Shown piece by piece: positions 10,581 to 62,200 of a stretch of 64,000 nt of DNA (position 1 is the stretch's first letter; every line of letters begins with the position of its first letter). Source of the stretch: Pholiota molesta (lineage: Eukaryota; Basidiomycota; Agaricomycetes; Agaricales; Strophariaceae); the NCBI GenBank assembly GCA_014925825.1, contig JACGCK010000014.1, positions 372,001 to 436,000 on the forward strand, written 5' to 3'. The notes below the pieces were generated by a model, which was given only the letters and a program-made list of their open reading frames with translations, was not told the DNA's origin and ran no database searches. The translations under genes were made by a program, and so were the position numbers.

Positions 10581-11646
10581 TCATAACATGCTGAGATTCT
10601 TTTTTGCACCGTCCTGTAGTGGGTTTTCCACGTTGTTGTGTTATTAGCCAAGTACTCAAGCTATTGTCAAGCTATTCAAGTGTCAACAAGTTGTTCTCAA
10701 GTACATAGCAAGCATCCGAGCTTTACGGAGCTCGCCGCCATGTGCTGATTGGCTGCTATTTCGAACTCAGCTTACCAGGATCACCCGATTTTGTGGTTTG
10801 CGCGTTGGATCACTACTACAACGACCGACGCCGAATCGCTACACGCTATCTCCCCTGCCGAAGTCCTCGTATTTGAAGTCCTAACTAATTCTCGGAACGA
10901 GAAGTAGGCAAGGCTACGTGCGAACTGATCGTACGCTCGGGATTTAGAGCACGGACCTGTCAATGTTCGAAGAAAATTGGCTCAAAGTGATTGGCTTTAT
11001 GGATCCCAAAATCCTCTTCTGGGGTGATTCACGGGGATGGCATGATCTCAAAATTCTGAAACTTAGAAACGTGTAGGGGAATGAACTCGAATCCAGGATT
11101 TAGAGCGCTAATGTGAGTAATATCCATATGCCCCACATGGTTCAGGCTGCACGGAGTGATAATCGGAACACCCTTCCATGCTCTTTGCTGAAAATATGGA
11201 GCTGACACTATCCGATTCGTACCAGGCTATCCATAGTCTATGCGCCGCCTTACGGTCGTACTCTGACTCCTGTATCTTGCATCCTTGTCATGCTGCCGCA
11301 ATCGGGCTGGCCAGCCGCTCTAATTCTGAAATCACCGTACAAGTCTGGCCGCCCTAAGTAATCTTACCAGCGCACGCCTCTGACAAGCGGAATAGACCGG
11401 CCTTCCGTGTGCTCTGCGAGATAGCTTGTACAGGAAAATGTCAGCCTCCTTGGAGGCTGGAAATCCTCGATCTGGTGCGCTTCTTGGGGTCATCCTCGCC
11501 CCGTTTTAAATTAACCGACTCTATTTTGCGTCCTGGGCAGCAAAGGACCGCTCTGCCGATTGATTTAAATACCAGACCCAAAGAGTCGATCAATCCAAGC
11601 ACCTTCGCTCAAAGTCGATATCTCCGACGCACAGCAGTCTACTTCC
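10581..11646. other. Intergenic, upstream region of the PKS gene
   Basis: I see no gene. Short direct repeats of caagctatt/caagt occur near 10660-10700. The promoter of the polyketide synthase gene presumably lies at the right end. Confidence 0.6.
11562..11570 (+). promoter_or_regulatory. TATA-like element of the PKS gene
   Basis: An AT-only stretch gatttaaata lies about 80 bases upstream of the PKS start codon at 11647. Its position and composition fit a TATA-like core promoter; there is no further support. Confidence 0.35.
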
Positions 11647-14600
11647 ATGGCTTCTTCTCTCTATAACAAAAAGACTCTCCTGAACGCTTTCGTAAGCATT
11701 GCGCACTCTGTTGACGTCGAACGCGTTGCTGTCGAATGCGGTCAGGCTCAGTGGACTTATGGCGAACTCGACGTCGTGTCAAGCGGTCTGGCGCGCGACA
11801 TGTACAAGGCGTATGGCGCCAAGCCCACCGTCGCCATTGTCTGCGAGAACCACCCCTATACGTTGGCGATGTTGTTTGCCATCTGGAAGCTTGGCGGCAT
11901 AGTCGCGCCCCTAGATCATAACGTTCCCAAGGACATCATGGAACGCATGTTGACCAACATTGGCCCCACCTGTGTTTTGGTTCCTTCGACGGAACGAGTT
12001 ACTCAGAGCATCATTGAGGGTATGTCTTCGCAAGAACATATCTCATCCTTCGTCTACGGTACTTATGCGCTTAGGTATCTCCTTGAAATGCCATACCTTC
12101 GACTCCGAGGCAACTACCATCACCGCTCTCATACAGAAATACCTCGATCAGTCTCCCGAACTTCCTGGTCACCAATTCCCTCCTCCCTCGCCAGAAGACA
12201 TCGCGTTATATTTACATACGTCTCGGCTTCTTCTGTTGCCAATGTCAAATGCGTCCCGCTCAGCCACGAGAGCATCTTAGGCAGTGCCAAGTCCCGCCTT
12301 GCTGGTGGAAACGCACTTGGCCCAAGCAAGAATTCGTCAACTTGCGCGTCCTTGGATGGTCTCCTTGGTCGCACGTCATCGGCTTGACTAGCGATCTCGG
12401 CGCGGCTATGCTCCTGACCGCAGGCTGCTACGTCTTCGCGATGATCCCTTCCGCGTACGGCGCTGCAGCGGCAAGTCCGACAACGCGGCCCGCTACCTGG
12501 ATGTATGTGGCCAGCTCCTAGAGACCGCTATTGCGAAGAAACCGACTTTCTTCGCCGGTGTGCCGTGGGTCCTCGAGGGTTTCATGAGGACCTATAAGCA
12601 GGAGACGGACGCGGCTCGCAAGCAGCAGATCTGGAGGCCATTCAGAGGTTCAAGGCTTTCGGATCAGGGGTGCAGCAACGAATGCGGAGTGCCTCGAGTG
12701 GGCCTCTCAGATCAAGCTTCCTCTCGTCATCGATATTGGCATGACGGAGATCGGCGGTAAGTTTGATGGTTTGAGTTTGTGTCGTGGCAACGCTGACCTT
12801 CGCTTTAGGAGCGTTGTTCCATTCGACTATCAACGGTGCTGAAGGCTGGGACAAGGACGATTGCCTACTCTCGGATGCCCGCTTGCGACTCGTCGATGAA
12901 TCCGGAGCAGAAACAACTTCGGTAGGTTTAGCATTTATAATAACCCAAGTCGTATATGTTGACTAATATTCATATTGCAGAAGGAGAGCTCATCATTAGA
13001 AGTCGCTTTGTGACCAAGGGATATCGCCAATACGATAATTCGCCGTTTACTCACGAGGACGATGGAACTGTCTCTTTCCGTACTGGAGACATCTACGGTC
13101 ATGTTGCGGATCAACGCCTGGTTTGGAGGGGACGCAAGGAAGATTATATTCAGGCTCGTCATTTCTATTTCATTTCTATTTTTCTGTTCTTATATCTACC
13201 ATCCCTTTTAGATGAGCTCAGGAGAGTCGCTCGATCCTCGTGTCGTTGAGGCCATTCTCGACAATGCCCCGTTGTCGTTCGCAGCTGCGTTGTCGGAAAA
13301 TTCCTCAAAGCACCGTCGCAACTTGTCTGCGCTATCATTCAGCCAGTCAAGAATGCATCGACTCTCGAGATCACGCGAGCATCTCCGTCGCCAATCGTGG
13401 GCTTGCTCCCCCCTTGCGTATCTCCTGGTCCCGTGTTTGGTTTGAAGGAAGATCAAGAGATTCCCATCACCAAAAAGGCGCTATTTTCCGCAAAAAGCTA
13501 GAGCAGCTTTTCGGCGAGCAAATCACTTCCTTGCTTAGCTCCGATGTCGCTTCTCAGAGCGAGAACAAGGCCAGTGCTACCACCAACCGCGCGCAAGGCA
13601 GGACAGGGATCAAATCGCCGCCATCGTGGCGAATATCGTCCTTCAGACGCTGAGAATCTCAGAAGAAACCATGGACGACAACTCGCAAGCCACTTTCGCC
13701 GAGGTCAGCTGTCTATTACTCTTTTAGTCACTCTTCTATTATCTAAACCCTTCTATTAGCTTGGAATGGACTCGCCATGTCGACTATGATTGTCAACAAG
13801 CTCAATCGTCAGCTAGATATGGCGCTCCCTCTAAACACCTGCCACACTTATATCGACTTGGTGTCCTTGACCAATGCCATCCTGTCTGACCTTGGTATGG
13901 ACGCGGCTTCGCCCAAAGTTCCTTCCTCCCCTCGAGTGCAGCGTCAAGTCCGCGAAAAGGAGGAAATTGTCATCGTTGGCCAAGCTGTTCGCCTCCCTGG
14001 TGACATTGACACCCCGGAAAGCTTCTGGAAGGCCCTTATCGATAAACGTGAAGACATTATCACCGCCGTCCCTGCCTCTCGCTGGGACCACGCAAGTTTC
14101 TACAGGGCGCCGGACTCGACAGAGCCTCCTGCCCCGTGTGACATCACTTTGGAAAAGGCGGGATTCGTGGACAGTTATAGCTTCGATCATACGTTCTTCG
14201 GTATCTCGTCAGCGGAGGCGTTCCATGTTTCTCCCAACATTCGACTTTCAATGGAGATTGCTTTCGAGGCGCTGGAGAACGCCAACATTCCGCCTTCTAA
14301 AGTAAAGGGATCCAATATGGCTGTTTCGTCGCCGCTTCCATGGACGAAGGTTATCTCAAGCTTTTGTTTGCCGACAAGGGCTGGGGAGGTAAGGCGTTCG
14401 TTTTCATTGCTGTGCGAAGCTGTCGCTTACGTTCATCGCATAGCGTACACTCGTTTCTACGGCACTGGAGTTGCCACTAGCACTGCTTGTGGTCGTCTAA
14501 GCTAGTGAGTATTTTTATGACGCATGTCTTATATAGCTCCTCATCCAAATTTCGTTAGCTTGCTCGATATACATGGTCCCTCTTTGACCATTGACACTGC

Positions 14601-17600
14601 CTGTAGCTCGGGATTGATCGCATTCGATCAAGGTAAGCAGTATCCGAAATAGTCTTCCATTCGTATAAACTTATTTTCTGTAGCCGTTCAATTCTTGCAG
14701 TCGGGTGAAGGAGAGTCAGCCATCGTCTGCGGAGCTAATACCCATGCATGGTATGTTTTTCCGACAGTTGTTGCCATATGCGGTTCCTCATCATCGACAC
14801 TAGGCCTGGCACCCTTGGCTTCCTGTCTGCCCAGAAGATGACGTCGAGTAACTCGCGCTGTGCGACCTTCACCAACATGGCTGATGGGTACGATCGGTTT
14901 ACTGCCTATCGTCGACCTTCTGACCTGTTTCATTTAGATATGTCCCATCTGAAGCGGCTGCTGGTTTGATTATGAAAACTAAAAGCGCCGCTTTGAGAGA
15001 CGGCGATAGGATCATTGGCGTCGTCAGATCCACGGACGTCAAGCATGACGGCAGATCCCAAGGCTTGGTCGCCCCCAACGTGAAAGCCCAGATTGCTATG
15101 CAAATTGCCCTGCTTGAGAAGGCCGCGCTCTCGCCTTCTGAGATTGAGTATGTTTCTCCTGTTTGTTGGCTTTCAATTTTCTGATCTCCTCCATTAGTTT
15201 CATTGAAGCTCACGGAACTGGTATATTATATTTTTTTTGGCACACAATTTTCCGATGCTAATCCTTGTCGATAGGTACCTCTCTGGGTGATCTCATTGAG
15301 ATTCAAGGAATCAACGAGGTCTTCGAGTCTTCACATGGCCCTGAAAAGCCTCTCGTCGTCGGCGCTGCTAAATCTTGCGTGGGCCACGCCGAACTGGTCG
15401 CCGGACTAATCGGCGTCGTGAAAACTCTTTGCTCATTCTCAGAAGGCTCTGTTCCCGGTCTCGTTCAATTGACTGCGGACAACATGAACCCCAACATCGA
15501 CTGCAGTGTCGTCCCATTGCATATTCCCATCGAGCCAGCTGTGTTGAAGACCGAGAACTCCCTTCCTCTTCGCGCATTGATTCTGTACGATCTATCATTC
15601 TCTTTCTATCTTCATTGCACTCATTTCGCATAGGTCGAACGGTTTCGCAGGTTCCATCGCTGGAACGATCCTCGAGGCCCCCACAGAGGACATGAAACCC
15701 AAATCCTCTGCACACATCCCAGAGACCACGCCTATGCTATTCGTCGTCAGTGGAAAGAGTCAAGATGCCCTCACGGAATACCTACAGAAATACCTAGATT
15801 TCTGTCTCGATGCATCTCCATCGCTCTTCCACGCCATTTGTTACACAACCTGCACTGGTCGCGAGCACTATCGCTACAGATTCGCTTGCGTGGTCAACAA
15901 CATGCAGGACCTGATTGCGCGTATCGAGGATCGTCTCCAAAACAGCTCGACAGGGGCTGGAGGAAATGCGCGCCGTATTCTTCTGGATTCCCTGGCCAGG
16001 GCTCTCAATACCAGGGTATGGGTCGTTATCTTGCCAACCAGTATTCGGGCTTCCGATCCATCATCGTTGAAGCTGCCAACAAGGCCGCCGCCCTAACTGG
16101 ATACCCATCCTCCCTTTCCTCATCGAGGAATCGGCACCAGGAAAGCTCACCATTGATCATAGCGAAGTCGCCCCTGTCTGTATCTTCATATTCCAGTATT
16201 CTGTCGCTACTTGGTTGGAAAGCCTCGGAATCCAGGCTCATGCCGTTATGGGACACAGTTTGGGAGAGATTGCCGCCGCAGGTTAGTGTCTGACCTTTCC
16301 ATCGTTGAAGAAAGCTCATCCGATTTTTTCCAGTCATTGCTCGCGCGTTCTCGTTTGATATCGGTCTCCAATTTGCCGTTCAGAGGGCCAAGCTACTTCG
16401 CGCCGATCCAAAGCGTCCAGCCGGCATGGCTGCCATTCAAGCCACAGAAGACCGTATCGCCCAATACATCCAAAGTTGGGTCTCAATGACCGCGTGGCGA
16501 TAGCCGTCTACAATGGATCCGACGCGCATGTAGTTTCCGGAGAGTTGAAGGCCGTGGAGGCCTCATGATGCGGCCAACGGGATGGCTTGAGGTGCACCAA
16601 ACTGAACGTTGATCAAGGTATGACAATCAAATCATATTCTAACGACTTCGCTTATTCCTCTCTAGGCTTCCATAGTCCAGCGATCACGCCTGCGCTTCCT
16701 GCTCTCAAAGCTTGGCTGGACGAACACCAGGACGAGATCAACGGGCTCGAAAAGCCTTTCTTCTCCACCTTGCGGGGTGCAGAGATTCCCAAGCACGAGC
16801 GTTAGACGCTCAATACTGGGTAATACTGATATCTTTATATCTATTGAACGTCGATCTGATATTTTGGCTAGGTTGACCATGCCAAAGCGCCGTCAGATTT
16901 GTCCAAACTGCTAGGGCGGCGACCAAGGCGTCTACGATTGACGTCATTGTGGATGTTGGTCCACAACCCACCATCTGGTCGAACATGCAAACCCCTGAAT
17001 TCTCCAAAAAATCTCGATTGGCTTTTACAGGGAAACGCGGAAAAGATCAAATCGTCGCGATGCTGGCGGCACTCTCGTCTCTCTTCGAGAAAGGTTCACT
17101 ATCGATTTCGATGCTCTCTTCGCCCAAATGCCCTACAAATTCGCAATGACCGATGTTCCTACGTATCCCTTCCAACGCCTTTACAACTACCCATCGTACA
17201 TTTGCAGTCGTGCGTCACTGTTGCTTCCATACTCAATCAAGTGGAAGCCACCCAGCAAAAAGCGCCCACTCCTCGATTCGTCGTCGATCAGCCTCTCTGC
17301 GATTTCCTCGACCTTCACCGAATCGAGGGTCGTCGCGTTCTTCCGGCGCTGCAATGGTCGATTTCTTCGCCCGTGCAGCGGGGTCCAAGTCTGTGAAGAA
17401 TATCAAATTCCACACACCGTTGTTTTGGAGACACCAGAACTCAAGTCCGCGCCGAAATCGACGATCAAGGCGCCTATAAACTGGTTCAGGAAGATGGTGC
17501 GACACGTATATCTGCTCGGAACCATTGCCGACAAACCTGGATCGTCTCTCGGCCGAAAAGTTGTCAAGGAACCTGAGATGGTTCCTTTGCAGATGATGTC

Positions 17601-19998
17601 GAAGGCACAGATCTACGAGTGCTTCAAGAATGTTCAATTCGGAGAGCCTTTCCGCACTGTCCAGGAGGTTAGAATCTGGGCAGACCACGCCGACGCCGAT
17701 ATCAAACTCCAAGCCACGGAGAATCCTGCTCATGATCGCATTCGCAAATTGGACGCCTGCCTGCATATGTTCGGTGCTATTTCGTCGAGGATGGCGCCAC
17801 CAGTCGACGATAGCGCCGGAGCTTACCTCCCTGCTTCGTTGGAGGACTTCACGCTTCACACGGATGATATGCCTTACAATTTCACCTGTCGCTACTATCT
17901 ACCCCTCGACATCGGCCGTAACGCTCGTGTTCTCAGCTCTTGCTTCGAAGTCTTTTCCGACGCTGGAGATCTTCTTGTATCTTGCAAGAAATACTCTGTG
18001 GCTTGGGTTCCTCGAGGTGTAGTTCACAAGGAACAGAAACCGGCGGAAACGAATGCCAATACCTGGCTTCGGAACGGCTGGACTCCGCAACCTTTGCCTG
18101 CGCCTCAGACCACATCCGTCCATAGATTCGACGAGCTACTCTACCTCGGAAATGGACAATCGTCGAGGGTTTTGCACGCTCTCTCGCCTTCAGCCAAAGA
18201 TTGCATTTCAGTCGAAATCCCCCACTTATCTCACGATAAACCGACAAACAGCGTGGCGAAGAATGTCAAGACGTTTGCTTGCGAAGAGTTGAACAAACTC
18301 CCTTCGCTCGTGCGGGGTCAAGATATGCTCGTCGTCTTGGATTTATCGAAAGCCAACAGCTCCCCAGGCTCCAAAGAATTCACTTCGCTTTATCTACAAA
18401 TCTTGATGTTCATGAAGCTGGTCATGGCCCACAAGCTCCATATTCGCAGTTTCTTGGCTCTGACTTCGTGGTCAGCACCAGTGGATCTCTATAAGGAAGG
18501 CCTCGATCTCTTCTCCGACTCTAATGTGGCGTCAAGTTCTCTTGTTGGGGCGATCATGCAGGGTATGATTCGAGTCTTCCGTCGCGAAACCGGCCTCGAC
18601 TTTGCGGCGTGGTGTTTGGATCTCGCGAATGTCGACAACCTCACCGACTCAACTCTTCGCCACATTCTTACCAACGAAGTCCAAGCACGACACCAATCCA
18701 CCTTCTCGGACACCTTCGTTAGCTATCGTGAAGATGCGGCCAAGAAATCGCTCTCTCGCCTTGTGCCTGCTCTCGAATCCCTCGAGCAAGTTCCCGCTAG
18801 GTCGCCCTCAGGAACAACAGTTATTGTGGGCATGGGAAGCATCGGTTCCGCACTCGCTATCTCTCTCATCGAGGCTGGTTGTGATTCCGTCATCTTCTTA
18901 GGACGCAGGCCCGATTCTCAGGACAAAGTAAGCAGCGTCTTCCATCCCTTCTAGAGGCTATTTTTGATCAAACTGTTTGCCAGGTCATCAAGGAGCTATC
19001 GGCCCTGCCTGAAAAAGTCAAAACTCGCTGCCAGTACCGTCAAGTAGATGTTTGCGATAGGGAAGCGCTCAAGAACGCCTTGGCCGATATCAATCGCATC
19101 CAAGGTCGCATCAACAACATCATCCACACCGCCGCGGTTGTCACCGATTCCACTATCGCCGCCACTAAGCCGACTGATTTCGAAGCTGTCCTTCGACCCA
19201 AGGTTGTCGGGTCTTGGAATCTCCACGTTGTCAGCCAAGAGTTGAACCTCAACCTCGAATCATTCGTTCTTTGTAGCAGCACTAAGTGAGCCAACACTCT
19301 TGTCCTCTTTTTCGTCTCCTCATATATTTTTTCCAGTGTCATTGTCGGAAACCCAGGGCAGGTTGCATACGTCGCCGCGAACTCGTTCATGGACTCCCTC
19401 GCTACCTTCCGTCATAATTCCGGCATGCCCGGAACATCGCTACAGCTGGGTGCTTGGGAATCCAAATTGATTGGCGAGATCGACATGAAAGGCAGCTTCG
19501 CTCTGCTTATGAAGAACGAAGAAGGCCTGCCTCTCATTCTGAAGGCTATGATGGCGCCCATCCCGCTGCAGATCATTGCTCGTATGGATGCCACCAAGCT
19601 CGCTGCCACGCCCGCATATGCCAAGGACCCCTTCTTTGCGCCTCTCTTGGCGTCGCCCAATAGCGCTGACACAACGCCGTCCAAGGCGAAGCTCTCGGCG
19701 GAACAAGCCAACAAGATCCTCATTGATATTCTTCGAGTCGCTCTTGAGCTCCAACCCAGCGAGAAGCTTGGTATGTTTATCTGACCCTTTTATCCTAAGA
19801 AATAGTACTGACGACGGCCTGCTATAGATACCGCTGAGGAGCTTACCTCCTTAGGCGCAGATTCGATAACGTTTGCCCAGTTCAAGGGCCAGGTGCTCAA
19901 GGAATTCCAGGTCGATGTCCCGATGATCTACCTCTCTGATGGCTACACCATCAGCGACATGATCAACAACGTCCTTGAGTCGTATGGCGCAGCTTGAT
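11647..19998 (+). pseudogene. hispS: Hispidin-synthase-like hybrid polyketide synthase (A-ACP-KS-AT-DH-KR-ACP), many frame breaks
   Basis: ATG at 11647, stop at 19996-19998. Domains in order: acyl-adenylate ligase (11647 to about 13500; WKLGG, GWSPWSHV and, in another frame, GMTEIGG); ACP (about 13620-13900, GMDS); ketosynthase (13950-15700; active site DTACSSG, then EAHGTGT and a GHAE motif); acyltransferase (15980-17160; FPGQGSQ and GHSLGE); dehydratase hot-dog with HRIEGRRVLP, i.e. HxxxGxxxxP (about 17300); ketoreductase (18800-19500; GMGSIG...); terminal ACP (19700-19990; GADS). From memory of the family, the ligase and KS resemble fungal hispidin (styrylpyrone) synthase, which extends caffeic acid with two malonyl units. 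The reading frame changes at 15 or more places between about 12210 and 17560 through one-base indels, several at homopolymers. Bases 17560-19998 and 14400-15900 are clean. The changes may be true decay or consensus error. The intron at 13154-13211 appears to be GC-AG. Confidence 0.8.
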
Positions 19999-25836: not shown

Positions 25837-26903
25837 TCAAGAGCAGACCCACCATAGACTGACAGTGCTTCTGTCCTCTATGCTCAGGGATGCATATGCC
25901 GCGTCCTCGGCAACATCCACCCCATCCATAGGTCCACGTAGGGCATTGAACTCCCTCTCCAGATCCTCCTCCGAGCAGGGCGGCTGAGTGAGCGCGTCGG
26001 CGAGCTCCATCGGGTTTGCCATGATCACGAGCCAACGGGCCCAGGCGCGTACTTGTGGTGGGATACAGTCAACATCCGTGTTCTGATGAGTGAGAAAAGA
26101 TTTGACTTATGTCGTAGATCCTGTGGGGCATCGCGGGGAAACTGAAAGGCTCTTTCAGTCTCCCGCGACGATGCAGCGTCTACAGCTGCCTGATGTGGGG
26201 ATGGACCGGGATGGCGGGGGCTACAACAATATTGATCAAGCTCATAATCAAGAGCGAGAGCGCATGCGACTCACTGTACGTCCTCCGTCTCATATCTGCT
26301 GTGCCGATGTACACGATGTGCCGTGGCACTCCTAGCAAAATAATCAGCGTACTCTCGAAAGGGTGGGATACGATTAAACTTACATCGGAGGGCCCATCGA
26401 GCCTCGCGGAGACTCGGTGTTTTCGCCATGGCGGCTGGTGAGATGACCACCGGCGCCGGACGCGCTCTCGGATCGTGGTTTAGAAACGTTATTCCACCCT
26501 TCGGCAGAACGTCTGGTAGGAGGTCTCGCGGGTATTCCTGTTTATCGACGGAATCGCTACATCAGTGATCTTGCATATTTAATTGCGAGGGATCTCATTA
26601 CTCACCCTGACTGCTGACACTTTGCATGCTCTGTAAAGGAACGGCGCAAACGAGCGTAGAGTTTTGCGCTGGGATGGGCCGTGGATGGGCGAGAGGCTGG
26701 CTGGAAGGTCCAGCTCTAGGTTGGGGCCGGGGTTGTTGTACAATGTGCGAGTCCTGGTGCGCGCTAACTGGTTTATTTGCATGCCTATTCGCGTCTCGAA
26801 TGTCGCTAATTGAAGCGGACGGAATGGAGTCTTGCCGATGGGGCTTTGTGATTGTTCTCGTCGCGCTGTCTGTGTCGTCTAGAGTCCGTTTTCTGCTGTC
26901 CAT
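25837..26903 (-). CDS. Unrecognised repeat-family gene (copy C), multi-exon model
   Basis: An ATG at 26903 on the minus strand opens a hydrophilic N-terminus (MDSRKRTLDD..., rich in Gln/Pro/Ser). It runs to a donor at about 26603 (CAG/gtgagtaat). The next exon, about 26540-26385, contains HLTSRHGE and ends at a gtaagt donor. It aligns with the exon at 5640-5515 of copy B (ITSHHGG), with the same splice-site positions. A downstream segment at 26028-25837 is also open (a stretch around SEEDLEREFNAL). The family relationship is clear at DNA level across about 26340-26540. I assign no function and the 3' end is unsure. Confidence 0.4.
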
Positions 26904-27130
26904 TGGGGGGAGGGGGATGATGGAAGATTGTTTGGAGTTGAATGAAGTGCTCTTTCATCCCTTGGCTTCTTTAGACCGTTTCTGTTCACTTATATCTCTG
27001 TTAAAACCTGCTGGTAACGACGAGGCAGCATGAAATTTCGCATCGTGCGTACTAAAACTGCCGAACATCGCTTTCTTGCTTTGCGCTTGAACAAGGGTTC
27101 TAGTTGATGTCCGGTGCATTCTATCAGATA
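26904..27130. other. Short flank left of the transposon
   Basis: This would be the upstream region of the copy C gene. It ends at the transposon target-site duplication. Nothing else is seen. Confidence 0.5.
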
Positions 27131-27139
27131 CAACAAAAG
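27131..27139. repeat. Left target-site duplication
   Basis: CAACAAAAG directly abuts the left TIR and is repeated exactly at 32659-32667 beyond the right TIR. Confidence 0.88.
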
Positions 27140-27324
27140 TAGTCTCGGAAACCCAGCCTCTGAAGGGCTCCTTCCCAATTTGGGTCCCTTCCCTTCAGAG
27201 TCTGGGAAATTACCAACGGTCGCAAGGGACTTGTGCGTTCGGGGTTTTTTCGACGCTCGCAGCTGATTTTCACGGCCCCTTTTAGCACACGTGGGTTCGT
27301 GGGAACTCGGTTACGCGTCGCGCC
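27140..27324 (+). repeat. Left terminal inverted repeat, 185 bp
   Basis: Reverse-complementing 32474-32658 gives this sequence with no difference that I can find. An internal imperfect hairpin at 27158-27200 is formed by ctctgaaggg and cccttcagag. Weaker similarity continues a few tens of bases inward after a 4-bp gap. Confidence 0.92.
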
Positions 27325-27452
27325 CATTATCAGCTATCAGTTATCAATCTCGTTCGCGTCGTGTTTATTCTATATCTGCCCCCAATATCACTGGAATAGT
27401 ATCAGATCCTTCTTATACACCTGTTTCACTCTTTTTAAATCGTGTTTTTTGA

Positions 27453-30212
27453 ATGGATCGCTACACATTTCGGCTATTTGCACAAGGAATACCTGAAGAT
27501 GAAGACTATGCAGAATCGGATGCTCGAAGCTCACCTCCCCATCCATCCTCCCCCATCCCACAATCTGATGACTTTGAAGACCCTTCCATTCTTCTTTCCC
27601 CAACTGACATTCTCGAAGATCCTGAAGACGAGGACTTTTACATCAAGACATCAACAAAACGCCGATCTCCGCTCTCCGACACAGAGAAGGCGCGTCTGGT
27701 CTTGCAATTCATGCGAGACACTCTGTCTCGATTTTCCCTTCGACAATTTCTGCAAACGATCTTTACATCTGACGACGGACCAATCAAGAACTTTACCAGT
27801 ATTTTTCTGGCCGGTGGTGGGCATCTGGCGATGATGGAATTATGGTGGGAACTCTGCGGTGGCCTGAAGGATCGAGAAGCGACACGTTGGGTGGTCAACA
27901 AAGCTGCCTCTGCCTGTTCCAGAGAAGCCAGCTGGCTGTCAGATCGTGCATCCGAAGGGCCGAACAGAGCTCATGCACAATTCCTACGAGTCTCGTCGCA
28001 CAATGTCGATGTTGAAATGCTTAATACATTTCGTATTTTTGATCTACTGAAACGATATGAGGAAGTCACACCACATCTCCAGACAATTCTCAAGACAATT
28101 ATAAACAAGGAAAACATGATATTAAAACCTGGAAGCCGACACACCGAAGCTGTGAGTAATTGTCCACATGATATATTCTGAATCTTGAATTGATAATTTG
28201 TTCAGGGAAGAACACTAATTACTTCAATGCTTCTCAATCTACGCAGCCGTCATTTAAACTACCATGCTGCTATAAACACATTGTTATTCTGGGACAATCG
28301 CATACCCAAACGCCTCGTCCAAGCCTTCAATCACTTTGGTATTACGACGTCGTACTCCTTTCAAGTGGACGCAGTCACAGCAATCAGCAAAAATGCGATG
28401 CTCCTTGTGCAACAGGCTGCCAATGATCCCTCTAAAATCAAGATGTTGCCTTACGATAATTTTAACTGGACTTCTCGAGCATGGGAATCTAGTGCGCTAC
28501 ACGGAACTGTTACTCATGACGAGGTTTCTGCTCTTCTGGTTATTCTACCCACACCACCTAATGGTCCAAATGCACGTCAAATAACAAATATCCATCACTT
28601 TGCACCCACTCAGCGAACCCGACATGATATTTCTCCTGCCAAATCCTTGTCTGACATACTCCCCAATTCCGCCGATCAGCTCGCATTCCGTGCTAATGCC
28701 ATCATCCATGTCACACAGATTTTAACGGAGGATATTAAGGCACTCTCCCATCTCTCTTCAGCAATCCCCAGTTTTGAGGATCCCATGGCTATTCCACTGC
28801 ACAAAACTGAAGAGTACTATCTCCCTACCTTTGACCAAGAGCAGGGGTCAACGCGGGGAAATATGGATGTTCTTGAGCACTACTTTGGAAAGGTGCTAAA
28901 AATTCCAAAGGAAACATTTGAACAGACTATGTTTGCAGTACTTGGGGATCGTCTGACCACTGTCCGTGACCGTGCTGCCCAGGACCAGTGTGCTGTTGAC
29001 CGATCTACAGCTCGATTTGACCATTTGTCTAGTTTATCTATGGTCAGCGGCTTAATGCACTTTGTTTTGAACTTTATCGAAGCAGAGGGGAAAAATGCAT
29101 GGGGCACGTCTGCTGTGGCCGATCCTGTCAGTCTTTCGACCCTTCGGGACTGTCTCCCAAACCGGTCAAATATTAACCTTCAGAAGGTTGATTATTACGC
29201 ATGGCTTCGCTTTCTAGATGTTATCCTTCGCAGTCTTACCATTCAAGCTGCCATCCAAGCACTCAATATTTCTTCTGCGGAAGATATCCCACAGCATATT
29301 TCCGACTACAATTCTCTTGAACGACTCTCAGCAAAGATTGTTGACAACTACACACTTCCATCGCCAACACGCCTCGAGGCTTTGGGTCAAAAGAAACTTC
29401 CCGGGAACACCGTATGTGGGCATGCCATTATTCTAAAGCATAATCTTATGACGCTTCGGGAGATGCAACACGCGATCAAATATGGTCATCCTCAGCGTAT
29501 TCAGCGGATGATTAAATTTTGGTTGCCAATGTTTTATGCTGCCGGGAGCTACAACTACGCCAACGAGTGTATGGAACTACTCCACAATATGATCCATGAT
29601 TGGCCCAAGGATTTTGCACAAGTGGCATTCAATGGGATGCTCGTCAATCCATCTGGAAAACCCGGAGAATTCAAACCAACAGATATCCGAGTTGAGCATC
29701 TCAATGACCGAATCAAAGAACGTGCACACGGCTCAAATGCAACACCCGATCTTCTTTCCAAAATCACTCCAGCTATGGGACATATCTCACAGCTAACAGA
29801 CCGATTATTTTCTGATCTGAACATTGAACATCAAAACCAACAACATGTTCATGTCGCTCAGCATCGGGATATTGAGCTTCTTGTCAAGCACTTCATCAAG
29901 GAGAAGATATTTGATTTTAACTCTGATGTTCTCTCAGAACACCCAGTTGTCGACTTATATCGCTCAGGCTGTATACGGCTTGCCGGAAATAATACTGGAC
30001 ATTCTAATCATCTTAAACAACATATTCTCCGCCTTCGAACTCGTCACACTACTCCAAGTCAAGCATCCTCTCTTCCTGAGGAAATGGAACTTGTGAACGC
30101 TCGTGATCATAGGCAATTAAATTTCACTACACGGGAGGAAGGCGATGAATTTCAGGAAATGAGCAATCAATCTATGCAGAGTCCCGAGATGGATGAAGAA
30201 GATGGTGAATAG
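27453..30212 (+). CDS. DUF6589-domain protein, candidate transposase
   Basis: Two exons, 27453-28151 and 28206-30212, joined in phase 0 across a 54-nt GT-AG intron. The protein has 901 residues. The N-terminus (about 1-75) is acidic. The DUF6589 region, common in Agaricomycetes, spans about 240-830. Motifs shared with my memory of the family are YDNFNW (D317), an RGN followed by GDRLTTVRDRAAQ (D481), and NYANECMELL (E687). Their order and spacing could form a D/D/E RNase H-like triad; that is inference, and the family is officially of unknown function. The C-terminus (from about 850) is acidic. The gene starts 128 bp inside the left TIR, so the TIR probably carries its promoter. It is convergent with the helicase. 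Confidence 0.88.
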
Positions 30213-30263
30213 GATATAATTATATTTAGTCGGATAGAATTATAAAGTTAGTAGAGATTTACT

Positions 30264-32372
30264 TTACGAAAAATTCGATGTAGCTTTACGTTTTCTCGAG
30301 GAGCACGTGGAGTCTGTGGACGTGGTGGGTGTGCCTGCCATTGGACTGTAAACACTGTCTAAGATGTGTTGAAGTGCGTTGAATAGCGGCACAGCAAGCT
30401 CTTCCTCATGAGGAATGTGGGTGAATGAAAGAAGGGTGTTGAGGGTAGAGATGTTGTGTGCTCGCTTGGCAATCTCTTGCAGATCGCTGTCGGAAACAAG
30501 AGAGTCTGGTCCGTAGCAAGGCCAATTTTCCATCCATTCCTCTTTCCAGATCTTCAAACGCCAAGCGGCAAGGGATTCAAAAATGATCTCCTTCTGTGTT
30601 CTTGTGGTTGTTGGTCTGGTAGGGGAATAATCTTCGTCGACAGCTGGGAAATTCTCCATGATCCAGGTGAGGTCGCGATCGATGCAAAGAGTGGGATTAC
30701 AGTTGGAACAGCGTGTGCGGCAGCGTACGCAGAGATTGCCAGAGTTGTCGTAACGAGGCGGGTTTTCAAGGCGATGATCTACAATGTGCTCGAGACAGTC
30801 AGAGGTTGAATGAATCAGATCCAACAATGCTGGATCTTCAAAATGGGGGGACGTTGTGGAAAGATCCCCATCATCGCCGCTCATCGACTTCTCAACGAGA
30901 ATAACTCCCACCGCTGTCGCTCCGCTTCTTCGAGCACCTCTCCCACGACGTTGTTCCCATTTGACAAGAGTGAGACCCCGACATCGATATTGCACCACCA
31001 TCTGCACACTCGGAAAGTCCATCCCAGCCCCAATTTTGTCTGAACCGAGCAGAATTTTTGTCTTTCCGCAGATAAAATCAGCCGTGCATATTTTCTGATG
31101 CTCTTGAGACAGCCCGGAATGCAGAATGTCAACGAGGCTAGTGGGCAACCTCATAGACCCGAGGCGAGTGTGGAACCACCAGAACATGGCAGTAAGCATG
31201 TCCAAATTGTCGCAGTAGATTATTGTTTGGGGGATTGATTCCTCTGACGCATTCCACGGAAGGACGAAAGTTAGATCTTGGAATGAACTTGCATCATGTT
31301 GCATCCGCGCGACGATTGTCGAGAGCTCAGGACGGAAGTTCCCAAGGTTTATTAGTCGGTATTCTGGCTTTAAGCCTGCGTGTATCTCGAGAGATTTGCG
31401 GTAGAGTGTTGGGAAAGTGGCAGAGAGGGGGACTAATGGGATATCGTCGCCCAAGAGCTTTCGAAGTAGATGGAGACGTGAATATCCTGGGCGCCATGAC
31501 ACGCTCTCGTGTACTGTATGTGCTTCATCAATATAGACAGCAGATAGTTGTGCCCGAAATGACTCGGAGTGGAGAACGCGAGCAACTGAAGGAGTCTCGA
31601 GCATCTCTACGCAACTATAGACAACGTGTTTAGAGCCGCCCTTCGCGATTTTCTCCAATGTAAATGAATCTGAGGCACCAGAATGAAGAAACGTGCATTC
31701 TATTACAGAATTACGATGACTATTATATAGGTTCAATAACAATATGATAGCTTGTCTCGAAAAGCCGCACCGTTCCTTCCCCTGATAACCCAAACTCGTA
31801 AAAGGTACAACAACGAGTGATATACCCATCCCCTGCGCAAGAAGTGGGAGGATCCATGTATGCGACTTTCCAGCACCAGTTGGCGCTATCACACACAGGT
31901 CACCACGGCGCGAAATCACAGAATTTGCCGCCTCGACCTGATAATCCCTCAACACCTGCCCAGGCTTCAAAATGCCGCTGTCCAGTGCGAGTTTGTTCCA
32001 TTCTGTCGCCGAAAGCGGATCCATACCAGTAATAGACTGGAAATCACCAAAGGCAAAAGCTTTTTGGCGAGGATGTCCGGGATTGTTGATCTTGTATGGT
32101 GTGAAAGACAGAGTCTTCGACTTGACTTCATATCCATTTTGAAAGCGCGGTCGAATTTTCATGGCACTAAGTGGGGCTCTCGGAGTCAAGAGAGGTGAAT
32201 GGGGGGTTGAGATTAAGTGATTTGGAGTGTTATGGGGTGTTGCAAAACGAATGGCCGGCGGGATCGATGTCGATGTTGTGGATGTGCCAGACTTGACTTG
32301 TTCAGGCTGATTTTCATCATGAACCCTCCGTCGTTTGGAGGGATGGTAAGAATTTGGAGTAGGGAGCGACAT
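30264..32372 (-). CDS. RecQ-like superfamily 2 DNA helicase of the transposon
   Basis: A single-exon frame, 702 residues from the ATG at 32372. The open frame extends upstream into the TIR but has no ATG there, so 32372 is the best start. The N-terminus is basic and disordered with SKRRRV, a possible nuclear signal. Helicase motifs: LRDYQ (motif 0), Walker A APTGAGKS (about 163-170), IDEAH (281-285), SAT (317-319), GSDKIGAGMDFPSV and the arginine-finger motif QRRGRGARR (473-481). A Cys cluster at 547-562 (CxxCxxxCxxC plus C) resembles the RecQ zinc-binding subdomain. I see no HRDC domain. It could assist transposition or repair of the donor site. It is intact and convergent with the DUF6589 gene. 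Confidence 0.9.
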   Translation of the reverse strand: MSLPTPNSYHPSKRRRVHDENQPEQVKSGTSTTSTSIPPAIRFATPHNTPNHLISTPHSPLLTPRAPLSAMKIRPRFQNGYEVKSKTLSFTPYKINNPGHPRQKAFAFGDFQSITGMDPLSATEWNKLALDSGILKPGQVLRDYQVEAANSVISRRGDLCVIAPTGAGKSHTWILPLLAQGMGISLVVVPFTSLGYQGKERCGFSRQAIILLLNLYNSHRNSVIECTFLHSGASDSFTLEKIAKGGSKHVVYSCVEMLETPSVARVLHSESFRAQLSAVYIDEAHTVHESVSWRPGYSRLHLLRKLLGDDIPLVPLSATFPTLYRKSLEIHAGLKPEYRLINLGNFRPELSTIVARMQHDASSFQDLTFVLPWNASEESIPQTIIYCDNLDMLTAMFWWFHTRLGSMRLPTSLVDILHSGLSQEHQKICTADFICGKTKILLGSDKIGAGMDFPSVQMVVQYRCRGLTLVKWEQRRGRGARRSGATAVGVILVEKSMSGDDGDLSTTSPHFEDPALLDLIHSTSDCLEHIVDHRLENPPRYDNSGNLCVRCRTRCSNCNPTLCIDRDLTWIMENFPAVDEDYSPTRPTTTRTQKEIIFESLAAWRLKIWKEEWMENWPCYGPDSLVSDSDLQEIAKRAHNISTLNTLLSFTHIPHEEELAVPLFNALQHILDSVYSPMAGTPTTSTDSTCSSRKRKATSNFS

Positions 32373-32473
32373 AGGTTGACAATAAATAGAAATTAGGGGG
32401 CATAGGGTATATAGAGTGAATTGGAGGGAGGGAGGGAACGCGACGCGACGCGAACGACGTTGATAATGGGCCA

Positions 32474-32658
32474 GGCGCGACGCGTAACCGAGTTCCCACG
32501 AACCCACGTGTGCTAAAAGGGGCCGTGAAAATCAGCTGCGAGCGTCGAAAAAACCCCGAACGCACAAGTCCCTTGCGACCGTTGGTAATTTCCCAGACTC
32601 TGAAGGGAAGGGACCCAAATTGGGAAGGAGCCCTTCAGAGGCTGGGTTTCCGAGACTA
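32474..32658 (-). repeat. Right terminal inverted repeat, 185 bp
   Basis: Inverted exact copy of 27140-27324, with the mirrored hairpin at 32598-32640. The upstream region of the helicase gene abuts it. Confidence 0.92.
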
Positions 32659-32667
32659 CAACAAAAG
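32659..32667. repeat. Right target-site duplication
   Basis: CAACAAAAG, identical to 27131-27139. Confidence 0.88.
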
Positions 32668-56153: not shown

Positions 56154-56834
56154 CCTTTCTTCTACATAGCCAAAGCCGCGCATGGCGAGACGATACGTCG
56201 TGCACAGGATCTGGAGGATGCGCCCACACATGCGTCGAGCAGCGAACATGGACTGGTCACCCATGCAGGCAGGCATATCCCTTTGGCAAGGATGTGTCTC
56301 CTCTCGCGCCCGCATCACCACATCATCCGTTTCCCCTATCCTGCGTACGGCCGACAATATCGTTCCGCGTGGCCTAGGTCTTATCTTTATTTGAAAACGG
56401 GCACTCTATATACACGCGTTAAGTAGCTTATTTGATTTTCATGATTTCACGGACCTGGCGACACAAGAGTACGTGTGCGCCAGGGAATCTCGTATATACC
56501 TCGTTTGTAAATTTTTGTCTCCTTGGTTAATCCACCCCCATTTTTGATTCTGAACTTCGAGCGCGAGCACGAGCCCCAACCCGAGCAATACGAGCCGAGC
56601 ATCACAACTATCTACACATTAACTCCTACTCTGTCCCCTTCCGTCACTCTCCGTTATCGACGACCTCAGTCCTTCCCACCAAGAAGAAACCAACTCTTCC
56701 ACAGTAGCTATCGAGACTGGACCTAAGGTTTTCCGTCGAAAACATCACCGCTAAGTTTTTCTCCTTTTTCTTTCAATTTCAATCTGTCTTCGACATTTTC
56801 CGAGCTCCCATTCCATTTAATTTCGAACGTCGAT

Positions 56835-59264
56835 ATGGCAAATCCGGCACAACCACAGCTGTTCACACAGCTTAAGCCGATGCCCATTCCGCGCACTTTG
56901 AGCGCGCCGCTTTTCGATGGCAAATACGTCAACGATTTTATTTCTATTCTTGAACGACATGGGAACGCCGCAGGGATACCTGATTCTGATCTCCCAAAAT
57001 ACATCGTTCAATACTGCACTGATCAAGTCAAACAGGTCATTAGGTTCTGCGATGAAGTCCAAGGAAACGACTGGGAAAAGGCCAAGCAACTCCTCGTCGA
57101 CTTATACGGATCGAACGACGAACCAGTCAAGGCAACGCTGGAAATTCTGCGACTTTTTGTCAAGGAACACGCCAAGGGTAAAGAATTTGGTAATAGAACT
57201 GATGTGGACGAGTATCACAGAGGATATCTCACGATTGCCGCGCAACTGAAGTCGAAGAAGCTTATCGATGACAGCGAGATGAAACTTAAGTTCTTTGCGG
57301 GACTCCCACGTCGTACTAGGGCCTTTGTTACTTCCCGTCTCCCCCCAGCAAACCTCTCGACGAATGCGCCCCCAGAAATCAAGACGGTTATTGAAATTAT
57401 TTGCCGGCAATTCAACCCATCAAGCATCGAATCCTACAATGTCGAATCGGACGCGGAAGATTCGGACGACGACACGCCTACTCCCGTGAAATCGATCAAG
57501 CCGGCTCTCCTCCCATTATCGAGCGTCGTCGAACCCGCTAAGTCCAAAAATGTATCAGCCAAGAATGATATTGATCTCCTCGCACAACAGCTCCAGCAGC
57601 TTTCGCTCAACCAGGCCCAGATGCAAGAAATGTTCAAGGTTGCGATGAGTACTGGCACTATGTCTCGCCCGTCTAACATGATGAACTCCGCTGACAAAAC
57701 TTGTTTCATTTGTGGGTTGCCCGGGACACACAAATTGCACCCTCGTTTCTGCCCCGAGACTGCCAAACTCATTGCGGAAGCGCTCATCAAGTACGACGCG
57801 GCGCGTGCACGTTACACACTTATGGACGGATCCGACCTTCCTCAAATCCCATTCACTCCTGGAGGTGTCGCGCAGTTTTTACGAGAACATCGGAATGACT
57901 TTCCGCGACGTGAAACACCGCCCCACACGATAACTGCAAATGCGTCCCCGGCAACTCTCATGATGGGCGATTACCCAGCAATATGCGGAGACGTGTACGC
58001 GATCGCGTCGAATCAAGATGAGTTCTATTTTTCTGATTCATATCCCGTTACACGCACTGGCAAAGACACCTCTGCTAGAACCGATCCGACTCGTCGTCCA
58101 CCAGCGCGCAAGCAACCCGAGCGTCCTGCAACACCAACCGCGCCTCCTGCGTCAGCAGTTCGCCAGCCATCAGTAACCGCGCCGGCGCCTCCTGGATCTC
58201 AACAAGTCCCCAACGAGACACGCGCGCCAACCGGACCCGCGCCGCCGCCAATCAATACTCGTGAAGGCTGGAAGGAATCGCTTCCACGAAACCAGAAGGA
58301 TGTCGAGATGAAGGACGACGCGAAGAACAAGGCGCCTCAATACCACTATACGTCGGACGTCCAGGAGAAGATCTCGATGCAGGATATTCAAGATCTGATC
58401 TTGCAAACACAGGTAACATTGACTCTGCGTGATATTTTAGGAATCTCGCCAGGACTTCAGAAACGGATGGCTGACGCCACGAAGACTCGACGCGAATATC
58501 TGACGAAATATGGCGAGTATGATCTTTACACGGAGCGAGCGGAGGAAGAACTCGCAAAGACTAGTGCTGGAGCACGAGTAAATTCGGCGAGTTCCCTTCA
58601 ATTTGACGAGTTAAACGATCCATCTATGCTTGATTCGTTTATGCTTAGGTATTCGAATGCTGTTAGCTTTCGACCCACGAAGAAATACGCGATGACGACT
58701 GGCATTTTCAACGCCGAACTCGCGGGAATATCAATCAAATTCATGGTAGATTGCGGATCTGAGCTCAACATCTTTCCAGAGCGTCTACTCTCGCAAACGA
58801 ACCTTCCTCTCGACTACGAAGGAACGCGCTGGTCTCTGAAGGGCGTCAATGGAGGGCCCGTAGGATTACGAGGAGTATGCCGCGACGTACCGATTTCAAT
58901 CGGCGGACACAGATTCGATCATCATTTCTTTGTTACTCGTGATGACATGGACTCACAAGATTGTATTTTAGGACAGCCGTGGATCCAGTGGTTTGCCGCG
59001 CGCATCGATTATTCAAGGACCGGCCATATGAAGATTATGCTCTGGAAGGACGGCGACCGCAACTACAACCCGACGATCTCGGTACAGCTCACCAAACCTA
59101 ACGATCCACGGAACGTCGATGCAACTGGCCCCATACCAGGCCCTTCTCGACCTGTACAACACGACGAAGAGCCGGTACACAGTCACCATCAGCATTCGCA
59201 CCATCAACGAGCCTACATCGAAGAAGTCGACGACGAGTACGTTGACGCTCAATATTTTCTCTAG
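56835..59264 (+). CDS. Retrotransposon gag-protease polyprotein
   Basis: ATG at 56835, 809 codons, stop at 59262-59264. The N-terminal 200 residues are a gag-like capsid region (FVKEHAKGKEF, FFAGLPRRTRAFV). An acidic linker follows, then a zinc-knuckle variant with Cys290, Cys293, His299/302 and Cys306 (CFICGLPGTHKLH). A Pro-rich linker spans about 410-475. A retropepsin-like aspartic protease has the active-site motif VDCGS at 638-642 and the later ILGQPW. The protein would form virus-like particles in the cytoplasm. It is intact. Confidence 0.88.
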   Translation: MANPAQPQLFTQLKPMPIPRTLSAPLFDGKYVNDFISILERHGNAAGIPDSDLPKYIVQYCTDQVKQVIRFCDEVQGNDWEKAKQLLVDLYGSNDEPVKATLEILRLFVKEHAKGKEFGNRTDVDEYHRGYLTIAAQLKSKKLIDDSEMKLKFFAGLPRRTRAFVTSRLPPANLSTNAPPEIKTVIEIICRQFNPSSIESYNVESDAEDSDDDTPTPVKSIKPALLPLSSVVEPAKSKNVSAKNDIDLLAQQLQQLSLNQAQMQEMFKVAMSTGTMSRPSNMMNSADKTCFICGLPGTHKLHPRFCPETAKLIAEALIKYDAARARYTLMDGSDLPQIPFTPGGVAQFLREHRNDFPRRETPPHTITANASPATLMMGDYPAICGDVYAIASNQDEFYFSDSYPVTRTGKDTSARTDPTRRPPARKQPERPATPTAPPASAVRQPSVTAPAPPGSQQVPNETRAPTGPAPPPINTREGWKESLPRNQKDVEMKDDAKNKAPQYHYTSDVQEKISMQDIQDLILQTQVTLTLRDILGISPGLQKRMADATKTRREYLTKYGEYDLYTERAEEELAKTSAGARVNSASSLQFDELNDPSMLDSFMLRYSNAVSFRPTKKYAMTTGIFNAELAGISIKFMVDCGSELNIFPERLLSQTNLPLDYEGTRWSLKGVNGGPVGLRGVCRDVPISIGGHRFDHHFFVTRDDMDSQDCILGQPWIQWFAARIDYSRTGHMKIMLWKDGDRNYNPTISVQLTKPNDPRNVDATGPIPGPSRPVQHDEEPVHSHHQHSHHQRAYIEEVDDEYVDAQYFL

Positions 59265-59272
59265 CGCAAGAC

Positions 59273-62200
59273 ATGCAGATCCGGCCGCCAATTCACTTCA
59301 ACGTGTCTTGCGCGACAATAGGCCGGTCACTCATGGGTCTTCTCGGAGATCCTGAGTTTCGTGAGTATAGTTCCAATTTTTCTTCTTTTAATCCTCCAGA
59401 TTCGTTTGATTATTTATTACGACAAGTGAGTCATGCATCTAATAGTTTAAGGCCGCTAACTACGCCTTGGACCCTTCGAGCCCTATCGAGCTCAACCGAT
59501 ATGCGAACGCGCGACGTGTCTCTTACCTCAAAGCGCAAATACAAACCCGTGGACCGTAAAGTGCGACCTGTACCTACCTACATGCCGAAACCCGAAGCCC
59601 TCGAGTTCAAACCGATTCCATTACCTTCAATCACACCACTACCAACGAGGCCGCCTCATGTTTCTTCTATCAAACCCACGGAACGAATGACAGCTGAGCG
59701 TCTCACCCTTTTATTAAACACTATACCTGAAGATTTCCTCTCCTCAGAAGAGATCGATCTCCTCGCGTTTGTTGTAATGAGACGCGAGGAGGCATTCGCT
59801 TTTACCTTCGCCGAGAAAGGAACTTTTCGACAAGAATATTACCCCGACTATGAGATCCCGACTATCGAACACACGCCCTGGCAGCGTCCACCAATCCGTG
59901 CACCCAAAGCACTAGAAGACGTCATTCGACAAGAAATCCTCGAACAGGAAGCCGCGGGACGATTCGAACCCACGTCATCAAGTTATCGATCTGCGCTCTT
60001 CGCTGTCGCAAAGAAGACAAATAAAGTGCGTCTCGTTCTAGATCTCCAAGAGCTGAATTCCGTCACTATTAGAGATGCTGCACTGCCGCCTTCAGTCGAA
60101 GATTTTGCCGAGGCCTTCATTGGTCGAGCGATATACGGATCCGTTGATCTGTTTGCGGGATATGACGCCCGCATACTAGCTAAGTCATCCAGACCATTAA
60201 CTGCATTTCATTCACTTTGTGGGCCCAAACAGCAAGCCACTCTTCCAATGGGTGCGACAAATGCAGGCGCCGAATTCCAACGATGCGTCGACCATTCCTT
60301 ACAGGAAGACAAGGACGTCCTCGCGAAGGCCTTTATGGATGACGGAGGGATCATGGGTCCACCTACGACGTACAACAACGAATCGATTGAAGATAATCGT
60401 AACATCCGCCGGTTTGTATTTGAGTATGCAACTAACCTTGACAGGGTTCTTGCACGATTTATAGCAGCCGGGATCACTGCATCGGGACTCAAGACAACCC
60501 TCGCAACACCTCGTCTTCGCATTGTGGGATCAGTCGTGTCGATTGACGGATGGCACCTTGAGAAAGGTCTCATTTCGAAAATCGCACGATGGCCCCCATG
60601 TGAGAATGTCTCTCAAGTTCGTGGATTCCTCGGAGTGGTCGGCTGCGGACGCAAATGGATCAAGAATTTCGCATTAATAGCTAAGCCATTAACATCGCTA
60701 CTCCGAGCTACTGATGCAGACTTTATATTTACACAGGAGGCACAGGACGCTATGGATTGCCTCAAAGATCACGCAACAACGGCACCCGTTCTCACCAAGA
60801 TCGATTATGACAGAGCTAAGCTTATCACCCAGCTACCTCGCTCGTCTGACGAGGGACTTGTGATAGTCGCCGTCGACGCTGCAGCCTTAAACGGCGCCGG
60901 CTGGGTGGTTTACCAACATCTCGACAATCAACGCCGACCTGCCATATATGGGTCTTGCACCTACAACGAACGCGAGAGTCGATATTCGCAGCCCAAAGCT
61001 GAACTTTACGGCGTATTCAGGGCATTCAAACACCTTCGACATCGAATTTGGGGCATCCGATTTTGCTTGGAGCACGACGCTAAGTTCCTCCGTGAAATGA
61101 TTGTTACACCCGATTTACCAAATTCACCAATGACTAGATGGATCGCGTATCTTCTCCTTTTTGACTTTGAGATGCAACATGTGAAAGCCGAGAAACATCA
61201 AGCCCCTGACGGTTTATCTAGGAGGCCCAAGTCGGAACAGGATTCCGAAGATGAAGATGATCCCGAAGATTATCTCGATCGGTTCTTGGGGAATTTCATT
61301 GCTTCGGAAACTGATCTTCCTCAGGGGTTCTGGCGTCGAAATTCATATAAACTCACGGCAAGGCAAGTCCATTCTGTCCTTCGCTCTATTCAGCTCGCTC
61401 GCTCTGCTCTATCTATGTCTTCAGCACCATACATGCGGCTTCTTCGGAACGATGCGCCTTACAATCCCTACGCGAATGTTTACAAGCCTCCGGCCTTTCT
61501 CTTCAAAACTGAATACATGGGCGGCATCCTAATCGACTCGGAACCTCACGTCGGCGCCAAATTCAACCTCCCGCTCAAGCCAACGCGATTCGATCCTTCC
61601 AACTGGACGCGCAACTCATTGATCGACTACACGCTCCTTCGCGTGACGGACACCATGACATATCTAGGCCATGAATTCTTCAATCGCAATACACCTATCG
61701 AACAGGATATCGAATATATACTTGGTGACGAGGCGATCACACTCACAGTCACGAAGTACGTCAATACTTATGCTTCGCAACTGGAGAAAGATCGTATGTG
61801 GCTGAAACCGAAGAAGTCGAGCTCAGCGCCACCCCGGCTAGTCATTGAAGATCCACAACGTCGTCAAGAGTTGCTCGTCCAAGTACACGACGAGTGCGGT
61901 CATCGGGGGCGCGACCCGACCTACATCAAGCTTGCAGAACGAGTTTATTGGCCGAATATGTACAATGACTGTGCATACTTCGTGCGATCGTGCGTACCCT
62001 GTCAACTAGAGTCTAATGCTAAACCTATTATTCCCTATAATCCGGCGTGGGCATCCTCGATCCTTCGTCATTGGCACATGGACTGTATTCACATGCCTCT
62101 CGGCGTGGGGGTAAGCAGTACCTTGTTCAGGCTACATGCTCCGCGTCGAAGTGGGACGAAGCCGAAGCAATTCGTCAAGCCAATGCGACCACGATTGCGA

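Follow-up and report, generated by a model that had tools for sequence, protein, structure and literature searches.

Among described DNA transposons, the closest counterparts of the element studied here are the Academ transposons, which we cite from excerpts of the published work. AcademH elements encode a helicase and make target-site duplications of 9 or 10 bp, while AcademX elements encode a nuclease and make duplications of 3 or 4 bp; it was suggested that the length of the duplication goes with the encoded helicase or nuclease (PMC10045372). AcademH was described at low copy number in Basidiomycota, Ascomycota and Mucoromycota (PMC10799480). Most fungal Academ copies contain protein domains, for example DEAD/DEAH and recQ_fam, and annotations frequently present these copies as host genes (PMC6416283), and putative non-autonomous Academ elements were reported in the mushroom Marasmius oreades (PMC8290104).

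We analysed a stretch of 64,000 nucleotides of the mushroom Pholiota molesta, hereafter the window, against the 65.6-Mb genome of which it is part and whose contigs bear C-numbers (C603, C422, C55 and so on). The window contains a transposon of 5,519 bp (27140-32658, window coordinates) with two convergent genes, one for a DUF6589 protein and one for a RecQ-like helicase. We consider it very probable that this is an intact, probably recently inserted autonomous transposon of the AcademH type, in which DUF6589 would be the DDE transposase and the helicase an accessory enzyme. A preliminary description, made from the window alone, found support as regards a complete mobile element, further loci, empty sites, the pairing of the two genes and a function for DUF6589. 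No support was found for its statement that neither gene was a classical transposase or for its suggestion of an undescribed superfamily: helicase-encoding fungal Academ (PMC6416283) and AcademH with duplications of 9-10 bp (PMC10045372) are in print, as the excerpts of these works state.

Ends, target-site duplications and empty sites

The preliminary description had placed the identical 185-bp TIRs, the exact 9-bp duplication and the two intact convergent genes right to the base (Table 1). An inverted-repeat search returned 186 bp instead of 185 for the TIRs, as the adjoining G and C pair too.

Table 1. Features of the transposon, in window coordinates
Feature	Position	Strand	Evidence
Left target-site duplication CAACAAAAG	27131..27139	.	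Identical to 32659-32667; homologous empty site C205 with a single 9-bp stretch
Left TIR, 185 bp, start TAGTCTCGGA	27140..27324	+	100% complementary to 32474-32658; copies on C603 (95%), C422 (90-91%)
Subterminal inverted repeat, 24 nt	27341..27364	+	88% complementary to 32443-32466
DUF6589 gene (proposed transposase), exon 1	27453..28151	+	Splice as in public protein P0001; dN/dS 0.017 vs C603
DUF6589 gene, intron, GT..AG, 54 bp	28152..28205	+	Splice as in P0001
DUF6589 gene (proposed transposase), exon 2	28206..30212	+	PF20231 E 1.1e-96; dN/dS 0.127 vs C603
Proposed catalytic codons, DUF6589 exon 2	D317 28455-28457; D481 28947-28949; E730 29694-29696	+	Conservation; predicted fold of P0001
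RecQ-like DEAD/DEAH helicase gene, 702 aa, intronless, uninterrupted	30264..32372	-	PF00270 + PF00271; dN/dS 0.176 vs C603
Helicase motifs: Walker A; DEAH; Cys cluster	31863-31886; 31518-31529; 30684-30731	-	Motif search
Subterminal inverted repeat, partner of 27341-27364	32443..32466	-	88% complementarity
Right TIR, 185 bp	32474..32658	-	100% complementary to left TIR
Right target-site duplication CAACAAAAG	32659..32667	.	Identical to 27131-27139

Using the left end as a query gave eight matches in the 65.6-Mb genome: both ends each of the window copy, of a copy on C603 and of a copy on C422, plus two short partial matches. The C603 copy is 5.5 kb long and 94.6% identical to the window copy over aligned bases (5,198 of 5,494; 44 gap columns), and it is the other copy with both genes free of inserts. 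No stop interrupts its DUF6589 coding sequence, one TAG falling in the stretch that matches the intron; its helicase gene has a small frame-shifted stretch, in which codon 213 of the helicase frame is TGA. Among the copies found, that of the window alone has two intact genes. The C422 copy is gene-less and consists of both ends (1,014 bp). Two diverged relatives were found via their proteins. The first, on C55, encodes a DUF6589 protein 55% identical to that of the window and has 125-bp TIRs at 75% identity, starting with TAGTCTCG; about 5.3 kb (C55:40816-46113), probably an insertion, separates the two parts of its helicase match. The second, on C456, has 198-bp TIRs at 97.5% and stops in both gene matches.

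All five copies with resolved ends, window included, have TAG...CTA ends and a duplication of exactly 9 bp. The duplications all differ: CAACAAAAG in the window, CTCAAGTGG on C603, CTGAGCTTC on C422, CAAACAGAG on C55 and TCAGCCCAG on C456. Thus, the expectation that other loci would bear the same TIRs, with 9-bp duplications of different sequence, was borne out on C603 and C422. With the ends fixed, nine identical base pairs would arise by chance with a probability of about 4e-6 (window copy), and this, with the TIR copies elsewhere in the genome, puts the TIRs and the duplication of the window beyond chance. As four of the five duplications start with C, we also considered a duplication of 8 bp, with the C as part of the right end. 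This was rejected because the left flank carries the same base in all copies and the C456 duplication starts with T.

These resolved cases represent four of 30 DUF6589-helicase pairs, plus the gene-less C422 copy. Inverted repeats without a clean target-site duplication were seen on C40 and C257, and the remaining pairs gave no clean ends in the sequence searched. Two pairs on C257 (99202-105545 and 119672-126498) have divergent, not convergent, genes; they share the same inverted repeats and have adjoining flanks, and therefore probably arose by segmental duplication and not by separate insertions. On C400 (131279-140366; L022, L052, L053, L023), two inverted pairs have identical match scores, pointing either to duplication in palindromic form or to an error of the assembly.

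Kolobok transposons duplicate TTAA, and Helitrons are not known to have TIRs or a target duplication. The long TIRs and the target-site duplication led us to reject membership in the Helitrons. The helicase would be accounted for if the element were a Kolobok of the RecQ-bearing sort (KolobokH or a relative of it), since KolobokH encodes a RecQ helicase and is known only from fungi, according to the excerpted source, which also describes a RecQ helicase on the complementary strand of Kolobok-1_CCri of a red alga, a layout like that of the window element (PMC9587614). Yet five different 9-bp duplications are found here instead of TTAA, and the helicase is a separate convergent gene, whereas that of KolobokH was described downstream of the transposase domain (PMC9587614). 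On these two grounds KolobokH membership was rejected, and we regard a Kolobok origin as extremely improbable.

Empty sites were found within the same genome, as homologous sites and not as proven alleles. The left flank of the window copy has a 92% homologue on C205. A probe in which the flanks were joined through one 9-bp copy aligned there ungapped at the junction (87% over 1,189 columns), and the 9-mer at this junction is CGAAACAAG, which differs from CAACAAAAG at three of nine positions. Older homologues of the window site, on C46 (370k) and C98, are empty too, with small indels at the junction. The C603 copy has an empty counterpart at C603:22055, with exactly one CTCAAGTGG and matching flanks, and another at C603:38648, with a 9-mer bearing one difference. 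A partial homologue of its left flank on C8 ends short of the junction and says nothing on an empty site. As for C456, a repeat on C25 is an empty site, with one exact TCAGCCCAG between the same flanks; a repeat on C19 also spans the C456 empty-site probe, without the exact 8-mer. The single 9-bp copy at the empty sites shows that the repeat was made by insertion. The preliminary description had considered that the repeat might pre-exist, and these homologous sites show that it did not.

The DNA adjoining the insertion (window 26240-27129) has homologues on C205 (92%), on C46 (369746-370572, just outside the window; 83%) and on C98 (83%), so the insertion target was duplicated DNA. Elsewhere in the window, adjacent long open frames on the plus strand (56727-62946), two of which were scanned with Pfam, contain DUF4100 and an aspartyl protease, then reverse transcriptase, RNase H and an integrase zinc-binding domain; by its domains, this region is a Ty3/Gypsy-like retrotransposon. 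Open frames at 11569-12384 and 16999-18951 (plus strand), with an AMP-binding domain and a weak, below-cutoff match to a polyketide-synthase dehydratase, are perhaps secondary-metabolism genes.

Two conserved genes and a predicted DDE fold

Both genes are under purifying selection, as evaluated by comparison with C603 (Table 1). Codons skipped at indels numbered 0 in exon 1, 3 in exon 2 and 3 in the helicase gene, and the helicase ratio takes in the frame-shifted stretch of C603, which is able only to inflate dN. Judged from these ratios, both proteins remained functional during most of the divergence between the two copies. With identical TIRs and an exact 9-bp duplication, the two intact conserved genes bear out the earlier view of a complete, probably recently mobile, autonomous-looking element. 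The dS value was 0.21 for the helicase gene, nearly twice that of the DUF6589 gene (0.11-0.13), which hints at a mosaic ancestry. By sequence, the best solved relatives of the helicase are human RECQ5 and other RecQ proteins, and it contains the motif SWRPGYSRL, which we take to be a RecQ-like loop.

The DUF6589 protein of the window has 901 aa. The public protein P0001, which has the same splice, agrees with the DUF6589 frame of C603 in the two pieces compared. A Pfam scan with E up to 1 gave PF20231 only for exon 2 and nothing for exon 1. A sequence search of solved structures returned no match either for exon 2 alone or for the A1 profile, so that the fold match described here was found by structure comparison alone. 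The predicted model of P0001, a relative used instead of the window protein itself, matches the RNase H-like DDE transposase fold. Indeed, among the 50 matches listed, 42 were DDE transposases or RAG1 and eight were the Prp8 RNase H-like domain. The best match reached Z 12.6 at an rmsd of 6.6, in a range where, as the tool warns, models that are largely helical may score up to about 13 even when unrelated; the structural alignments with the best matches showed 6-10% identity. The DUF6589 protein thus looks like a DDE transposase with an RNase H-like core, as predicted from this model. This supports the expectation of the preliminary description that the element would give DUF6589 a function and goes against its statement that no classical transposase was present.

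Placing the active site was less direct. Among close relatives, conservation reaches 95% or more at about 20 acids and therefore cannot single out the triad there. The initial pick for the third acid was E679 (P0001 numbering), present in 91 of 93 A1 sequences and lost in the C119/C11/C244/C400/C25b lineage. E722, which corresponds to E730 of the window protein, was kept in 24 of 24 rows and in 88 of 90 in the A1 alignment. Moreover, the ends of five fold alignments put the third acid at 714-724 (P0001 numbering), by arithmetic on alignment end points and not by residue-by-residue superposition, using the catalytic residue numbers of Hermes, Transib, RAG1 and Tn5. E679 was therefore dropped as first choice and is kept as a rival third acid, D718 (P0001 numbering) being a further candidate. 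We infer that E730 is the third catalytic acid of the window protein.

Recurrent pairing of DUF6589 and helicase

The genome contains 61 matches to PF20231, against none in 14 control genomes. Clustering at 1.5 kb yielded 37 loci, although two on C152 may belong to a single locus. Thirty of these 37 loci are accompanied, within 6 kb, by a match to the window helicase and, conversely, a DUF6589 locus is found no more than 6 kb from 28 of the 30 helicase loci, where chance would give about 0.005 per locus. No helicase was found within 6 kb at seven of the 37 loci (C100, C135, C136, C223, C25:116 kb, C313, C98), and no DUF6589 within that range of two helicase loci (C88 and a split-off piece on C55). 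As a control, we used 70 loci of KDZ (Kyakuja-Dileera-Zisupton) transposases, hand-picked as one row per locus out of 128 matches, and only one lay within 6 kb of such a helicase.

DUF6589 relatives are present in many other mushroom genomes. Among public proteins, there were 155 DUF6589 matches in 8,000 scored candidates, the best 120 of 155 each carrying PF20231, and 337 helicase matches in 7,999 scored candidates. Among the matches listed (120 of the 337 helicases), 34 of 77 element-type helicases (P0121-P0197) shared a contig with a DUF6589 match, and 0 of 43 other RecQ-like proteins (P0198-P0240) did so; a shared contig stands here for an equal exact number of bases, and the DUF6589 side comprises the matches found. 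The two genes could have turned out never to occur together, or only without TIRs, which the preliminary description had regarded as damaging; the recurrence of the pair and the further loci with the TIRs dispel this concern.

Both genes might nevertheless be passengers, that is, cargo of an element moved by another transposase, for instance of the KDZ or hAT type. The C422 copy shows that gene-less ends can be moved, and KDZ genes are abundant in this genome, with the 128 matches mentioned above. However, the TIRs enclose both genes, which show purifying selection and stay together in diverged families, and the DUF6589 model (P0001) matches DDE transposases. Furthermore, KDZ duplications are 8 bp or less in the excerpted sources, which give 7-8 bp (PMC12730594) and 4-8 bp (PMC12810828). 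We therefore hold the passenger reading to be very improbable.

A more serious possibility is a separate, undescribed superfamily, whose DUF6589 transposases would not share descent with those of Academ, would have a hAT/RAG-like DDE core and would have gained a RecQ-like helicase independently. In favour of it, the pairing is specific and is seen again in diverged families; DUF6589 had no mention in the open-licence literature, PF20231 having an unrelated mention only; and the likeness to Academ is drawn from published descriptions. On the other hand, the recQ_fam helicase, the 9-bp duplication and the basidiomycete host all coincide with what the excerpts report of fungal Academ and AcademH, and we consider a separate superfamily unlikely. 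If true, DUF6589 would be the transposase that founds a eukaryotic lineage not yet described, and a single mushroom genome would contain dozens of its diverged loci.

Proposed mechanism and comparison with known transposons

For an element of the AcademH type, we propose the following mechanism. The DUF6589 transposase would bind and pair the 185-bp TIRs, its D317/D481/E730 triad acting on an RNase H-like core with a long helical insertion between the second D and the E. It would free the ends of the element, exposing 3' ends, and these would be joined to target strands at cuts 9 bp apart, from which the 9-bp duplication would result. As an accessory enzyme, the RecQ-like helicase probably opens, unwinds or remodels DNA at the ends or at gapped junctions. 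Movement would be by cut and paste rather than replicative, judging from the family and not from an excision event, none having been seen.

DUF6589, a Pfam family labelled 'unknown function', would thereby gain a function and a testable proposed active site (D317, D481, E730). As an annotation, the link between DUF6589 and transposases may be new, as far as the open-licence literature searched can tell. There are 37 DUF6589 loci in this genome alone, and annotation often treats Academ copies as genes of the host, as the excerpt cited above has it (PMC6416283). Owing to its identical TIRs, its two intact conserved genes and the gene-less C422 derivative in the same genome, the window element is a good candidate for testing the role of a RecQ-type helicase in DNA transposition.

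How does the element compare with other families? KDZ elements resemble it in being DNA transposons with TIRs in basidiomycetes. Membership was rejected, as PF18758 was not found in the DUF6589 protein (Pfam, E up to 1) and only one of 70 KDZ loci lies near such a helicase. hAT (Hermes), P element, Transib and RAG1 have a large helical insertion before the last catalytic acid. They gave the best structural matches and share with the DUF6589 protein the predicted RNase H-like core and an extensive helical region that precedes the last acid. They differ by the 6-10% identity, by duplications of lengths other than 9 bp (8 bp for hAT and P, 5 bp for Transib) and by the helicase, which is not known from any of them. 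In particular, 9 bp in five of five resolved copies, against 8 bp for hAT, led us to reject hAT membership.

In contrast, no difference from AcademH appeared in the features tested, the comparison being with published descriptions, known in excerpt. AcademH encodes a helicase beside the transposase, and here a RecQ-like helicase lies inside the TIRs. Its duplications are 9 or 10 bp as excerpted, and those found here are exactly 9 bp in each resolved copy. It has a DDD/E transposase, and here a DDE fold is predicted. The helicase of fungal Academ is of the DEAD/DEAH, recQ_fam type according to the excerpt (PMC6416283), as is the present one, with PF00270, PF00271 and RECQ5 as best solved relative. 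Finally, AcademH is known from Basidiomycota (PMC10799480, in excerpt), to which Pholiota molesta belongs.
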